Positions 2,880 to 8,923 of a DNA stretch of 64,000 nt are shown piece by piece. The stretch spans positions 1 through 64,000 of the IMG/VR virus record IMGVR_UViG_3300010354_014876; one strand, written 5' to 3'. The notes beneath the pieces are model-generated. The model saw only the letters and a list, made by a program, of their open reading frames with translations, did no database searches and was not told the DNA's origin. A program made the translations under genes and the position numbers. This DNA comes from a virus. Positions within the stretch are counted from its first letter, which is position 1. Each line of letters begins with the position of its first letter.

Positions 2880-3206
2880 ATGGGAAAACATTATCTACTT
2901 AATTTGTATGGATGCTCATTTTTCCTTTTGGATGATGAGCGTTGTCTTATAGATCTATTGGAAAACGCAGCAGTTGCAAGTGGAGCTACTGTGGTTCAGA
3001 CTATCTCTAAAAAGTTTGAACCACAGGGAGTTACTGTAATTTGTTTGTTGTCAGAAAGTCACATCAGCATTCATACATGGCCTGAAGAAGGTAAGGCAGC
3101 GGTAGACGTTTATACCTGTGGAGACTGCAATCCTAAAATTGGATGTGATGTCATCATTCAACAACTATACGCACAAAACCATACCCTCAGTTATATTGAG
3201 AGGTAA
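2880..3206 (+). CDS. speD: S-adenosylmethionine decarboxylase proenzyme
   Basis: This 108-aa protein is the bacterial class 1B SpeD type. The self-cleavage site is Glu59-Ser60 in SESHISIHTWPE; Ser60 would become the pyruvoyl group. His64 and the C-terminal DVYTCGDC segment with its catalytic Cys are present. The enzyme makes decarboxylated SAM, the aminopropyl donor for spermidine. SpeD is a common cyanophage auxiliary gene. Length and motifs are intact, so it should be functional. Confidence 0.93.
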   Translation: MGKHYLLNLYGCSFFLLDDERCLIDLLENAAVASGATVVQTISKKFEPQGVTVICLLSESHISIHTWPEEGKAAVDVYTCGDCNPKIGCDVIIQQLYAQNHTLSYIER

Positions 3207-3552: not shown

Positions 3553-3570
3553 CTGTAACATTTGTTACAG
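3553..3570. promoter_or_regulatory. NtcA-type palindrome (GTA-N8-TAC)
   Basis: A perfect 8-bp inverted repeat CTGTAACA-TT-TGTTACAG contains GTA, eight bases, then TAC, which is the core of the cyanobacterial NtcA (nitrogen regulator) site. It lies just after a stop codon and upstream of a promoter and a glutamine-riboswitch-like leader. The distance from TAC to the best -10 (32 nt) is longer than the classical 22-23 nt, so simple class II activation is uncertain. Confidence 0.6.
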
Positions 3571-3576
3571 ATGAAC

Positions 3577-3606
3577 TTGCATATATAAAAGCAATAGGTC
3601 TATAAT
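3577..3606 (+). promoter_or_regulatory. Sigma-70-like promoter for the riboswitch/short-peptide operon
   Basis: TTGCAT at 3577-3582, an 18-nt spacer and a perfect TATAAT at 3601-3606. It lies 8 nt before the first aptamer, so transcripts would begin at or just inside the aptamer leader. Confidence 0.6.
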
Positions 3607-3613
3607 GACCTTA

Positions 3614-3659
3614 CGTTCATCTGGAAACAGACGGAAGTAGGCCGACTCGGAACGGAACG
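3614..3659 (+). ncRNA. Glutamine riboswitch-like aptamer, first copy
   Basis: The segment has the layout of the glnA/Downstream-peptide (L-glutamine) aptamers. P1 is CGTTC (3614-3618) with GAACG (3655-3659). P2 is TCTG with CAGA closed by GAAA. Then come the conserved internal-loop run GACGGAAGTAGG and a small CCG/CGG hairpin. The last junction reads AACGGAACG rather than the usual GAAGGAACG. Family assignment is from recalled consensus, not a covariance search. Confidence 0.7.
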
Positions 3660-3700
3660 TTCATCCTCTCAGAGGACGCAAAAGCCGACTGAAGGAACGC
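3658..3700 (+). ncRNA. Glutamine riboswitch-like aptamer, second copy (Downstream-peptide type)
   Basis: P1 is CGTTC (3658-3662) with GAACG (3695-3699). P2 is TCCTC with GAGGA around TCA. The conserved GACGCAA run and the 3' GAAGGAACGC follow. Its P1 5' arm shares bases 3658-3659 with the P1 3' arm of the first copy, so the two P1 helices compete. A ribosome site (AAGGAGAA) lies about 20 nt further, before the short-peptide ATG at 3731, which suggests translational or attenuation control. Confidence 0.72.
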
Positions 3701-3730
3701 TCTTTAGCCTAAAAATTAAGGAGAACCCTA

Positions 3731-3889
3731 ATGTCTAAAGTTGTTTATAGAGGGTGTCAATACGACACCGAAGATGCAAAGAAAGAGTATGTGTCTTGGT
3801 ACAATCAAACTCATGCTCCTGCTCATCCACAAAACACCTATCGTGGAGTAGCATATCGTCCATGTAAAAACATGGAGGTGCAGAAGTGA
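3731..3889 (+). CDS. Riboswitch-controlled short peptide (DUF4278-like, YRG...YRG repeats)
   Basis: 52 aa. It starts MSKVVYRGCQYD and has a second related segment TYRGVAYRPCK. The repeated YRG-x-x-Y pattern is that of DUF4278-type cyanobacterial short proteins, the class that usually follows the Downstream-peptide RNA. An AAGGAGAA ribosome site is about 8 nt upstream. A role in nitrogen signalling, by analogy with glutamine-riboswitch-controlled small proteins of cyanobacteria, is inferred; the target is unknown. It overlaps the next ORF by 4 nt. Confidence 0.72.
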   Translation: MSKVVYRGCQYDTEDAKKEYVSWYNQTHAPAHPQNTYRGVAYRPCKNMEVQK

Positions 3890-3984
3890 AAAAACTTAAC
3901 TTTCTACAGATCATTAAAGAGCAAAAACAAAAAGAAGAAAGGCGCCATCAGGCACAACTTGTTAACGTAGGTGCAGGAAAATGA
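3886..3984 (+). CDS. Very small basic peptide, GTG start
   Basis: A 32-aa ORF reading MKKLNFLQIIKEQKQKEE followed by a basic end. GTG overlaps the preceding stop (GTGA) and its own stop overlaps the next ATG (ATGA), so it is translationally coupled on both sides. Coding status rests only on this packing. Function unknown. Confidence 0.45.
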   Translation: MKKLNFLQIIKEQKQKEERRHQAQLVNVGAGK

Positions 3985-4067
3985 TTGCTCCAGTTGCTGC
4001 TATTACTGGTGCATCAACAGCATTCATTTTTCTAATTTACCTAGAAGTTTTACTATTAAATAAGTGA
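3981..4067 (+). CDS. Very small single-span membrane peptide
   Basis: A 28-aa ORF, MIAPVAAITG then a hydrophobic stretch (STAFIFLIYLEVLLL) ending NK. It would be a single membrane span, similar in size to small photosystem or cytochrome subunits, but I cannot match it to a named one. The start overlaps the preceding stop. A terminator begins 8 nt after its stop, closing the riboswitch operon. Confidence 0.45.
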   Translation: MIAPVAAITGASTAFIFLIYLEVLLLNK

Positions 4068-4074
4068 ATCATTC

Positions 4075-4105
4075 AAAGAGGGGTCTTGACACCCCTCTTT
4101 TTTTT
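4075..4105 (+). terminator. Terminator of the riboswitch operon, with a promoter -35 in its loop
   Basis: A 10-bp stem (AAAGAGGGGT/ACCCCTCTTT) with hexaloop CTTGAC, continuing into a T run to 4105. The loop and 3' arm contain TTGACA, the -35 of the next promoter. Confidence 0.8.
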
Positions 4106-4114
4106 GACTATAAT
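4086..4114 (+). promoter_or_regulatory. Consensus sigma-70 promoter for the thyX region
   Basis: Perfect TTGACA (4086-4091), a 17-nt spacer and perfect TATAAT (4109-4114). The spacer contains the T run of the terminator. It would be read by host sigma-70 polymerase early in infection. Confidence 0.85.
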
Positions 4115-4136: not shown

Positions 4137-4313
4137 ATGGATAGAGAAAAGCTTAAGCTTATTGTCAGAAACCTTGAATCTCTGGTAGAATGTCTAAAGT
4201 CAGAGATTTATTCTGATATTGATTCATATAAAATGAATTATGAGGAAATAGCTCCTCACCTTGCTGACTACGATGAAATCTTTGAGGATAGTGATTTAGA
4301 TGACTATGATTGA
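4137..4313 (+). CDS. Small acidic hypothetical protein upstream of thyX
   Basis: 58 aa, beginning MDREKLKLIVRNLESLVECL, a likely amphipathic helix, and ending in an acidic run EDSDLDDYD. The frame is open back into the terminator at 4086, but the ATG at 4137 lies 23 nt after the -10 box and is the plausible start. It overlaps thyX by 14 nt. No domain recognised. Confidence 0.6.
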   Translation: MDREKLKLIVRNLESLVECLKSEIYSDIDSYKMNYEEIAPHLADYDEIFEDSDLDDYD

Positions 4314-5022
4314 AAATACGGACTTTGAGTTTATGAAACCAGAAGTAAAACTCATTAGTGTTACTCCAGATGCAGAGAAGCATATGGCTTACTGTGCTAG
4401 GGTAAGTAATCCTGCTAACCAAGAGAATGAAAAGTTCTCTGGTCTTCTCAAGTATTGTATTCAACATCAGCATTGGAGCATCTTTGAGCAGGCAATAATG
4501 ACTGTAGAGATTAATACTACAAGAGGTATCGCAGCTCAAATTCTCCGGCATAGGTCCTTCACATATCAAGAATTTTCACAACGATATGCTGATGCAAATC
4601 TTCTGAACAATACTATTCCCCTTCCTGAACTACGCCGTCAAGATACTAAGAATCGTCAGAACTCTATTGATGATATACCAGACTATCTCAAACTGACTTT
4701 GCTTGAGGATGTCCGTGTTCATTTTGAGCAGTCTCTGCGGCTCTACAATCGTCTTCTAGACAAAGGAGTAGCAAAGGAGTGTGCAAGGTTTGTATTGCCT
4801 CTAGCAACTCCCACAAGACTCTATATGACCGGTTCTGTGCGTTCTTGGATTCATTACATTGATCTTCGGTCTGCTCATGGTACTCAGAAGGAACATATGG
4901 AGATTGCAGAACTAGTACGTTGTATCTTTACTTGTCAGTTTCCTGCAGTATCTGAAGCACTTGGTTGGAGTCGTGAGGGATGTGCTGATTGCGTAGATGC
5001 ACCTTCTATTACTATTGAATAA
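4300..5022 (+). CDS. thyX: Flavin-dependent thymidylate synthase
   Basis: A 240-aa ThyX, using methylenetetrahydrofolate and FAD to methylate dUMP to dTMP. The ThyX motif RHR-x7-S is at residues 83-93 (RHRSFTYQEFS), followed by QRY. The C-terminal half contains FVLPLATPTRLYMTGSVRSW, typical of the FAD/dUMP site. Thymidylate supply for phage DNA is the role. The start is either the ATG at 4300 (GAGG about 15 nt upstream) or an internal ATG at 4333 where similarity begins; I keep 4300. Confidence 0.94.
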   Translation: MTMIENTDFEFMKPEVKLISVTPDAEKHMAYCARVSNPANQENEKFSGLLKYCIQHQHWSIFEQAIMTVEINTTRGIAAQILRHRSFTYQEFSQRYADANLLNNTIPLPELRRQDTKNRQNSIDDIPDYLKLTLLEDVRVHFEQSLRLYNRLLDKGVAKECARFVLPLATPTRLYMTGSVRSWIHYIDLRSAHGTQKEHMEIAELVRCIFTCQFPAVSEALGWSREGCADCVDAPSITIE

Positions 5023-5300: not shown

Positions 5301-6056
5301 ATGGCAAGAAAGAGAAGAACTACTGACCAACCAATCGGAGTTGGTATGACCACAAAACAAATGAAGAGAAAGAAGCCTATCAACTCACAGCTTCTTATTG
5401 ACATTGATCCTTTAACAGAAAATCAGAAAAGACTTTTCAATTCTTATGAAGGAGGAAAAAATCTAGTTGCTTATGGTGCTGCGGGAACTGGTAAAACATT
5501 CATCACCCTTTACAATGCTCTCTGTGATGTTCTAGATGAAAACAGTCCTTATGAAAAAATCTATCTAATTAGGTCTCTTGTTGCAACTCGTGAGATTGGA
5601 TTTCTTCCAGGTGACCATGAAGATAAGTCTTCTCTCTATCAGATTCCTTATAAGAACATGGTTAAATACATGTTCCAAATGCCAGATGAATCTTCGTTTG
5701 AAATGCTCTATGGCAATCTTAAGACTCAAGGAACGATTAGCTTTTGGTCTACTTCTTTCATTCGTGGAACAACATTAGATAAGTCAATCATCATTGTAGA
5801 TGAATTTCAAAATCTAAACTTCCATGAACTCGATTCAATCATCACTCGTGTTGGTGAAGATTCTAAAATTATGTTCTGTGGAGATGCTACTCAGTCAGAC
5901 CTTATCAAAACAAATGAAAGGAATGGTATCGTTGATTTCATGAAGATCTTGAATATTATGCCATCATTTGATATAATTGAGTTTGGTGCTCAAGACATTG
6001 TTAGATCTGGATTGTGCAAAGAGTATATACTTGCAAAAATGGAACTTAATTTATGA
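5301..6056 (+). CDS. phoH: PhoH-like P-loop ATPase
   Basis: A 251-aa protein with Walker A GAAGTGKT at residues 59-66 and Walker B IIIVDEFQN, followed by the SF1-helicase-like GDATQSD segment (motif III-like, contacting the gamma phosphate). The N-terminus is basic. PhoH is a near-universal marker of marine T4-like phages; its role is unproven, though RNA/DNA helicase-nuclease functions are proposed for relatives. Its stop overlaps the exonuclease start (TTATGA). Confidence 0.93.
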   Translation: MARKRRTTDQPIGVGMTTKQMKRKKPINSQLLIDIDPLTENQKRLFNSYEGGKNLVAYGAAGTGKTFITLYNALCDVLDENSPYEKIYLIRSLVATREIGFLPGDHEDKSSLYQIPYKNMVKYMFQMPDESSFEMLYGNLKTQGTISFWSTSFIRGTTLDKSIIIVDEFQNLNFHELDSIITRVGEDSKIMFCGDATQSDLIKTNERNGIVDFMKILNIMPSFDIIEFGAQDIVRSGLCKEYILAKMELNL

Positions 6057-7981: not shown

Positions 7982-8923
7982 ATGTCTTTTGCAGATCTTA
8001 AAAAGCAATCTAAACTTGGTTCTCTTACTCAAAAACTTGTGAAAGAAGTTGAGAAGATGAGCACAAGTGATTCAAGTGTAGATGATCGTCTCTGGAAACC
8101 AGAGGTGGATAAAGTAGGAAACGGTTTTGCTACGATTCGTTTTCTGCCAGCACCTGAAGGGGAAGAAATTCCTTGGGTAAAACTTTATAGTCATGCCTTC
8201 CAAGGACCTGGTGGATGGTATATTGAAAACTCTTTGACAACTCTGGGACAAAAAGATCCTGTTTCTGAATACAACAGGACTTTGTGGAATAGTGGAAACG
8301 AAAGGGATAAGGAAACAGTTCGTAAGCAAAAACGCAAACTTTCTTACTACGCAAACATCTATGTTGTGAAGGATCCTGCCAATCCTCAGAATGAGGGTAA
8401 GGTATTTCTTTACAAGTTCGGTAAGAAAATCTTTGACAAAATCATGGGTGCAATGCAACCAGAATTTGAAGATGAAGAAGCAATCAATCCTTTTGACTTC
8501 TGGCAAGGTGCAAACTTCAAACTGAAGATTGTCAAGAAAGATGGTTACTGGAACTATGACAAGTCTGAGTTTGATCGTCCTGGTCCTTTGCTAGAGGATG
8601 ATGATGCTCTAGAAGCACTCTGGAAAAAGCAATATTCTCTAAGTGCTGTAACTGCTCCAGATCAATTCAAGTCTTATGAAGAACTTGAGAAGCGTCTGAA
8701 GTATGTTCTTGGTGAAAAGCAGCAGTCTCGTAGGATTGATCCTGAAGTTGAAGACGAGGATAATGATCGTGGTTCTTACACTCCTGATTTCAGTTCACGA
8801 AATCAAAAGTCTGAACTTCCTACTAATCTTCGTGAAGAGTTGAATTCTCTTTCCAATTCATCTCAAGATGAAGATGAAGACGATGCACTGAGTTATTTCT
8901 CTAAACTTGCAAATATGGATTGA
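7982..8923 (+). CDS. gp32: gp32 single-stranded DNA-binding protein
   Basis: 313 aa with the three-part gp32 layout. A basic N-terminus (MSFADLKKQSKLGSLTQKL) serves cooperative binding. The OB core includes FATIRFLPAPEGEEIPWVKLY, SYYANIYVVKDPANPQNEGK and FDFWQGANFKLKI. A strongly acidic C-terminus (EDEDDALSYF) would recruit gp59 and other partners. It coats ssDNA during replication and repair. T4 gp32 binds zinc through cysteines; this protein has no cysteine at all. A GAGG ribosome site precedes the ATG. Confidence 0.95.
   Translation: MSFADLKKQSKLGSLTQKLVKEVEKMSTSDSSVDDRLWKPEVDKVGNGFATIRFLPAPEGEEIPWVKLYSHAFQGPGGWYIENSLTTLGQKDPVSEYNRTLWNSGNERDKETVRKQKRKLSYYANIYVVKDPANPQNEGKVFLYKFGKKIFDKIMGAMQPEFEDEEAINPFDFWQGANFKLKIVKKDGYWNYDKSEFDRPGPLLEDDDALEALWKKQYSLSAVTAPDQFKSYEELEKRLKYVLGEKQQSRRIDPEVEDEDNDRGSYTPDFSSRNQKSELPTNLREELNSLSNSSQDEDEDDALSYFSKLANMD

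Follow-up and report, generated by a model that had tools for sequence, protein, structure and literature searches.

The type-1 (glnA) glutamine riboswitch (RF01739), as in the gifB leader, has a CGUUCA-P2-ACGGAAGUA ... GAAGGAACG core and lies ahead of the SD, upstream of DUF4278 genes (PMC6316151); in gifB, glutamine activates translation (PMC11288750, PMC6316151). The type-2 (Downstream-peptide, RF01704) riboswitch accompanies DUF4278-type peptide genes in marine picocyanobacteria (PMC6316151), DUF4278 being the N-terminal domain only of IF17, a glutamine synthetase inactivating factor (PMC6316151), and the PMM1846-type cassette of Prochlorococcus MED4 combines an NtcA motif, a glutamine riboswitch and a small DUF4278 protein (PMC6316151). 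Tandem glutamine riboswitches (157 doublets and 4 triplets) have been described as independent, pseudo-cooperative units (PMC9481103). Among viruses, a glnA RNA is annotated in S-CREM1 (PMC9964418) and AG-345-P14 (PMC9004378) and NtcA sites in cyanophages were reported earlier (PMC3037559); that cyanophages carry glutamine riboswitches and NtcA boxes is already known. Here, we report a phage leader with the type-1 core, the type-1 position ahead of the SD and a DUF4278-like gene, and the element order of the host cassette. As the best explanation overall, positions 3612 to 3730 very probably form a single composite, strand-swapped glutamine riboswitch in the nitrogen-control cassette of a T4-like cyanomyovirus.

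The window (the whole stretch analysed, 64,000 nucleotides) was taken from a 64.5-kb virus fragment of a T4-like cyanomyovirus (IMG/VR record IMGVR_UViG_3300010354_014876). The cassette and its neighbours are as follows.

2880-3206: SpeD (ORF list, domain search)
3554-3569, no strand assigned: NtcA-type palindrome TGTAACATTTGTTACA, GTA-N8-TAC core at 3555-3568 (sole exact copy in the window, recurrence in relatives)
3577-3606, + strand: sigma-70-like promoter, TTGCAT at 3577-3582, 18-nt spacer, TATAAT at 3601-3606 (sequence, relatives)
3612-3700, + strand: predicted composite (interlocked) glnA-type glutamine riboswitch (covariance model R1, 94.8 bits, E = 2.6e-21, the window being among the 40 training sequences of R1)
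3700-3723, + strand: SD-sequestering hairpin, CUCUUUA (3700-3706) with UAAGGAG (3717-3723), proposed expression platform (pairing probability)
3731-3889, + strand: 52-aa YRG-repeat protein, weak DUF4278 relative (PF14105 and phrog_5049 matches)
3886-3984, + strand: 32-aa ORF, GTG start, GTGA overlap, MKKLNFLQIIKEQ... (phrog_545, E = 5e-4)
3981-4067, + strand: 28-aa hydrophobic ORF, ATGA overlap (ORF list)
4075-4108, + strand: intrinsic terminator, stem-loop 4075-4100 and T-run (terminator scan)
4300-5022: ThyX (ORF list, domain search)
5301-6056: PhoH (ORF list, domain search)
7982-8923: gp32 (ORF list, domain search)

Relatives were collected by a YRG protein search of IMG/VR (80 loci) and by DNA patterns (several hundred more). 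A parser with fixed P1 letters yielded 166 distinct elements and a relaxed parser 372 distinct viral elements; counts from pattern scans are lower bounds. Because the first collection fixed the P1 letters, P1 is invariant in the 166-element set and in alignments A1 and A2, and relaxed patterns were used for the P1 test. The composite model scored 84 to 111 bits in the cultured phages S-PM2, S-CREM1, P-TIM68, Bellamy and S-H34 (103.3 bits in S-CREM1), and 91.7 bits in the single-cell virus AG-345-P14. By this model S-CREM1 and AG-345-P14 carry the same RNA as the window, which the accessible parts of the two reports give only as a glnA RNA or riboswitch, without composite structure (PMC9964418, PMC9004378). 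In S-H34, Rfam aligns the whole 91-nt element as one RF01739 aptamer.

A sequence-only reading of the window had proposed two consecutive aptamers of glnA or Downstream-peptide type. The glnA assignment was borne out by the RF01739 alignment: in covariance searches, positions 3656-3703 scored 37.7 bits (cut-off, 35), and positions 3612-3658 fell just below at 32.6 bits (E = 7e-6 in a 123-nt search). The leader shares a CGUUCA-P2-CGCA start with RF01704, but with 11.9 bits against a cut-off of 33 the Downstream-peptide class was not recovered. Two glnA-like halves are thus present as proposed, yet neither is a complete aptamer. Read locally, half 1 has CGUUCA-P2-ACGGAAGUA and no GAAG before its 3' arm, and half 2 has GAAGGAACG but reads CGCAAA where a canonical aptamer has CGGAAGUA. 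When connected through the centre, the halves give one full canonical glnA aptamer, so that only the composite outer aptamer combines both core strands (CGGAAGUA and GAAGGAACG) with a paired P3 and P1. The parts of this RNA, all on the + strand, map as follows.

3614-3618: outer P1 5' strand CGUUC, paired with 3695-3699 (RNAalifold consensus on A1, P1 covariation)
3620-3631: P2 hairpin UCUG-GAAA-CAGA (compensatory changes in relatives)
3632-3639: junction CGGAAGUA, 5' core strand of the canonical glnA aptamer (RF01739 alignment; near-invariant CG[G/C]AAGUA in A1)
3640-3647: long-range P3 5' strand GGCCGACU, paired with 3683-3690 (cross-pair covariation)
3650-3662: inner P1 hairpin GAACG-GAA-CGUUC, 3650-3654, triloop 3655-3657, 3658-3662 (RNAalifold, compensatory change)
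3664-3676: P2' hairpin UCCUC-UCA-GAGGA (compensatory changes in relatives)
3677-3682: inner junction CGCAAA, shortened counterpart of CGGAAGUA (invariant in A1)
3683-3690: long-range P3 3' strand AGCCGACU (cross-pair covariation)
3691-3699: GAAG (3' core strand) and GAACG (outer P1 3' strand) (RF01739 alignment, RNAalifold, P1 covariation)

The element would thus be a canonical glnA aptamer (outer P1, P2, CGGAAGUA/GAAG core, P3) whose P3 loop has been exchanged for a second aptamer-like unit, itself circularly permuted, with an inner P1 closed by a triloop, P2' and CGCAAA, and with P3 common to both units. Unlike RF01739, its P3 is composed of distant strands, a second permuted unit lies inside, and the length is 89 nt against about 53. 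Relative to a single aptamer, the P3 loop GAAA is replaced by GGAACG-NNN-CGUUCA-P2'-ACGCAAA. Like the tandems of PMC9481103 it places two aptamer-like motifs in one leader; its halves are instead interlocked, and a pair of complete aptamers with separate P1 and P3 helices, as in contigs L254 and L271, was not found.

The earlier reading had made much of P1 arms overlapping at 3658-3659. This overlap falls within the inner P1 hairpin, where a second GAACG appears because the triloop happens to be GAA, and so hangs on A3657 (T in most relatives). The triloop is GAA in 7 of 40 aligned rows and something else in 33, most relatives having GAT, GGA, GAG or GTA with the same fold. The string GAACGTTC does exist at 3655-3662, but in the alignment with relatives the 3' arm falls on the first GAACG, at 3650-3654. 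The expectation that the two motifs do not fold independently was right; its stated reason, competition for two P1 bases, was not.

Within the composite, the inner unit has neither the GUA nor the GAAG part of the core and therefore may not bind ligand. There is an appreciable chance, if a little short of even, that glutamine is sensed by the outer aptamer alone, with the inner unit serving just to cap or stabilise P3, since some phages control a homologous gene through one aptamer whose P3 loop is GAAA (L033, with a homologous YRG gene, is such a case). Against this, the inner CGUUCA, ACGCAAA and GGAACG are conserved more strongly than a cap needs. In the preferred form of the composite riboswitch, glutamine would bind the outer pocket and perhaps the inner one too, with folding and binding made cooperative through the common P3. 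Folding would alter what becomes of the neighbouring SD hairpin (CUCUUUA:UAAGGAG), and plentiful glutamine would enhance YRG protein translation, in the manner of the host gifB riboswitch, so that the operon would be expressed mainly when infected cells are nitrogen-replete. Across 51 leaders of the CUCUUUA type, the SD pairing probability was 0.99 and fell to 0.66 when the upstream part was shuffled. A universal role for SD sequestration as the expression platform was rejected: only CUCUUUA-type leaders exceeded shuffles, and GG- and GA-type leaders failed. The SD hairpin shares no bases with outer P1; because the two do not overlap, the step that couples P1 to the hairpin is only proposed.

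Upstream, the palindrome named by the earlier reading is a perfect 16-bp match (TGTAACATTTGTTACA) and occurs as a single exact copy in 64 kb, where 0.58 matches are expected at two or fewer mismatches. Its NtcA-type character held up in relatives: of 156 distinct leaders, 138 have a GTA-N8-TAC box in the 120 nt upstream, where chance would give 7.3. A generic promoter scan gave the TTGCAT/TATAAT pair at 3577-3606 no score; both hexamers are where they were claimed to be, and their support comes from conservation, TTGACT or TTGCAT plus a -10 hexamer recurring in the leaders of relatives. Among distinct leaders the box centre lies mostly 31-32 or 50-55 nt before P1. For 78 of the 99 relatives in the distal class, the distance from this centre to the downstream -10 is 38-39 nt, a conserved spacing as at NtcA-regulated promoters, which puts the box at about -51. 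This position would be compatible with putative NtcA activation or repression.

Of the two, NtcA at the upstream box would most likely repress under nitrogen limitation, by analogy with the host gif and pirA genes, which are NtcA-repressed (PMC8092223); by analogy with these genes and with the gifB riboswitch we favour NtcA repression together with glutamine activation. The converse arrangement, in which NtcA recruits polymerase in nitrogen-stressed infected cells and glutamine gates translation, is quite possible, if somewhat less than evenly so. It fits a box at fixed distance upstream of a good -35/-10 pair and the activation proposed for cyanophage NtcA sites in general (PMC3037559). It sits less well with a box centre at about -51 rather than -41.5, with the proximal class (31-32 nt from P1), in which the box would overlap the promoter, and with the repressed host gif and pirA genes. 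Because box and aptamer are both conserved, control of the phage operon by both glutamine and NtcA, as the earlier reading proposed, is plausible. The PMM1846-type host cassette has the same order of elements; on our reading it uses a type-2 RNA, unlike the window.

The 52-aa YRG-repeat ORF, the two tiny ORFs coupled to it through GTGA and ATGA overlaps, and the terminator (hairpin at 4075-4100 plus T-run) were all found as first described. The YRG protein matched phrog_5049 (E = 9e-12) and, below the cut-off of 25.3 bits, PF14105 (21.5 bits, E = 3e-4), which points to a DUF4278 relative rather than a proven member. Thirteen of 16 aligned phage YRG proteins, the window's included, matched PF14105 at E <= 0.01, and a homologue on a phage contig in genome G001 reached 26.4 bits. 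A downstream ORF was found for 158 of 166 composites, almost all of the YRG family, and many RF01739 matches in hosts lie just upstream of DUF4278 genes. The 32-aa product matched the C-terminal part of a fused protein in L262 (BLASTP E = 2e-10); there and in L112, L286, L272 and L002, YRG is fused to a homologous LNxLQxIKxQIxKE-like peptide, which suggests that both products work together. The 28-aa ORF had no family match in domain and PHROG searches. A 12-of-12 sigma-70 consensus promoter (TTGACA-17-TATAAT) lies at 4086-4114, its -35 inside the terminator hairpin of the operon.

Covariation supports reading the doublet, from sequence, as one interlocked RNA in which outer P1 is swapped, the inner arms form a hairpin and P3 joins the halves. 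With no structure supplied (41 sequences), RNAalifold returned the swapped P1s, P2 and P2'; P3, where the alignment is gapped, was not returned. For cross-P3, whose strands follow AGUA in copy 1 and precede GAAG in copy 2, 79.6% of cells were paired in 41 aligned sequences, and covariation was 0.178, against 0.080 shuffled (0/500) and at most 0.055 slid; one pair occurred as GC (10), UA (10) and AU (6) with no broken case. The local P3 alternative showed zero double changes and a covariation of 0.003, and is broken in many P3 classes. Cross-P3 complementarity is seen class by class (AGUCG:CGACU, GGACGG:CCGCCC, AGCCGACG:CGCCGACU, AGCCGACA:UGCCGACU and AGACAACG:CGUUGCCU), with one or two A.C mismatches in some classes. 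In the window's class two positions are C.A or A.C mismatches, and its 8-mer AGCCGACU could close two local pairs too.

Under the relaxed patterns, 9 of 133 P1 arm combinations deviated. Eight of them have inner CAACG:CGUUG and outer CGUUC:GAACG or CGUUU:AAACG, giving 10 of 10 pairs when swapped and 8 of 10 when local; the ninth is a tie. The covariation counts take no account of phylogeny; nevertheless, the compensatory change of inner P1 (GAACG:CGUUC to CAACG:CGUUG, eight distinct elements) was seen in two P3 classes and so probably arose or moved at least twice. On the alignment, swapped P1s paired in 100% of cells with seven double changes, against 90% and none for local P1s, and by calculation the swapped arrangement was the more stable one for 85 of 86 elements, by a median of 2.5 kcal/mol. 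The MFE fold of the window leader alone did not give the composite, and forcing all cross-P3 pairs gave a worse nearest-neighbour energy than leaving them unforced.

Because most elements have identical P1 arms, both pairings are available, and the calculated gap between the two P1 sets is small; a strand-exchange switch, pairing locally when ligand-free and swapped when glutamine-bound, or the reverse, would exploit this. We consider it unlikely: the CAACG:CGUUG variants keep only the swapped pairing perfect, and the local state is therefore not generally conserved. Two complete glnA riboswitches in tandem, folding separately and pseudo-cooperative as in PMC9481103, would account for two Rfam matches (48 and 47 nt) and have real counterparts in viral contigs L271 and L254, but are highly improbable here, with copy 1 lacking GAAG, copy 2 lacking CGGAAGUA, the local P3 broken and not covarying, and two of ten P1 pairs lost in the variants. 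Two complete aptamers side by side are contradicted by P1 and P3 covariation. The in-line tandems of complete aptamers lie at L254:3413-3524 (61.1 and 48.4 bits), with a freshwater-2 RNA nearby, and at L271:3190-3304 (63.2 and 58.0 bits).

The comparison of viruses with hosts supports the interlocked form as near-exclusive to viruses, judged from sequence matches. RF01739 was found in 72 of 386 cyanobacterial genomes, and the composite model at full length in one, on a phage contig (68.9 bits) equal in length to a viral record of IMG/VR (189,106 bases); its other matches in the 386 were single aptamers of about 52-63 nt (32-41 bits). Except on that phage contig, RF01739 was absent from 101 sampled genomes of the genus Prochlorococcus. 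The exact composite pattern gave at least 120 matches in viral contigs and 25 in 257 Gb of prokaryote genomes; these 25 are mostly in unrelated taxa, about the chance number, except L332 (Prochlorococcus AG-418-C09) and L314. The latter (PAQA01000006.1), from a Rhodospirillaceae-labelled MAG, is a true composite by the parser, with a nested ORF; a 61-bit RF01739 match on another contig of that assembly suggests that the bin mixes phage and cyanobacterial contigs.

In the window, P2 and P2' are plain hairpins. Elsewhere, 217 of 372 distinct elements carry a complete ORF inside P2 (85) and/or P2' (178), starting with ATG at positions 4-8 of the 5' arm of the helix in 84 of 85 and 176 of 178 cases. 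The P2' ORFs stop with TGA (124) or TAA (44) precisely at the boundary between P3 and GAAG or AAAG (the J3/1 core); 176 of the 178 P2' elements with an ORF have the stop triplet, compared with 123 of the 194 in which P2' is a hairpin. Third-codon-position changes dominate (5493 vs 2500 and 1856; 7632 vs 4417 and 1948), the pattern that genuine coding genes should show. The nested genes belong to PHROGs 504, 6471 and 13397, and carriers include P-SSM2, P-SSM4 (L388:400-813), P-SSM7 (L387:669-848) and S-SSM4, with further examples in L005-L084, L379-L391 and other loci.

We tentatively propose a phage-specific riboswitch in which a permuted aptamer sits in the P3 of another, two ligands bind cooperatively via the common helix, and the P2 helices in many phages house small genes, such that the ribosomes reading them and glutamine binding would control each other. 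Genes inside riboswitch helices, with a stop codon in the core, would be a new combination of coding and sensing, and the composite would provide a natural example, amenable to testing, of an aptamer pair with circular permutation and swapped strands. No description of the interlocked architecture or of ORF-bearing P2 helices was found in the open-access literature, and priority is not certain. Doublets have so far been treated as two independent switches in series; because covariation shows a large cyanophage set to be one interlocked RNA, published counts and dose-response models may have to be reconsidered. With a layout resembling that of host nitrogen genes, the cassette would tie cyanophage infection to host nitrogen state, and it is present in the long-studied phages S-PM2, P-SSM2 and P-SSM4.

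Two further observations were made around these elements. One hairpin, TTCGCTATTCGCAAATAGCGAA, is found repeatedly, whether as P2, as P2' or within single aptamers (e.g., L026, L052 and L112), in the manner of a mobile stem-loop. A manA RNA adjoins the composite riboswitch in P-SSM4 and AG-345-E15 (L388:115-300 and L391:780-981).
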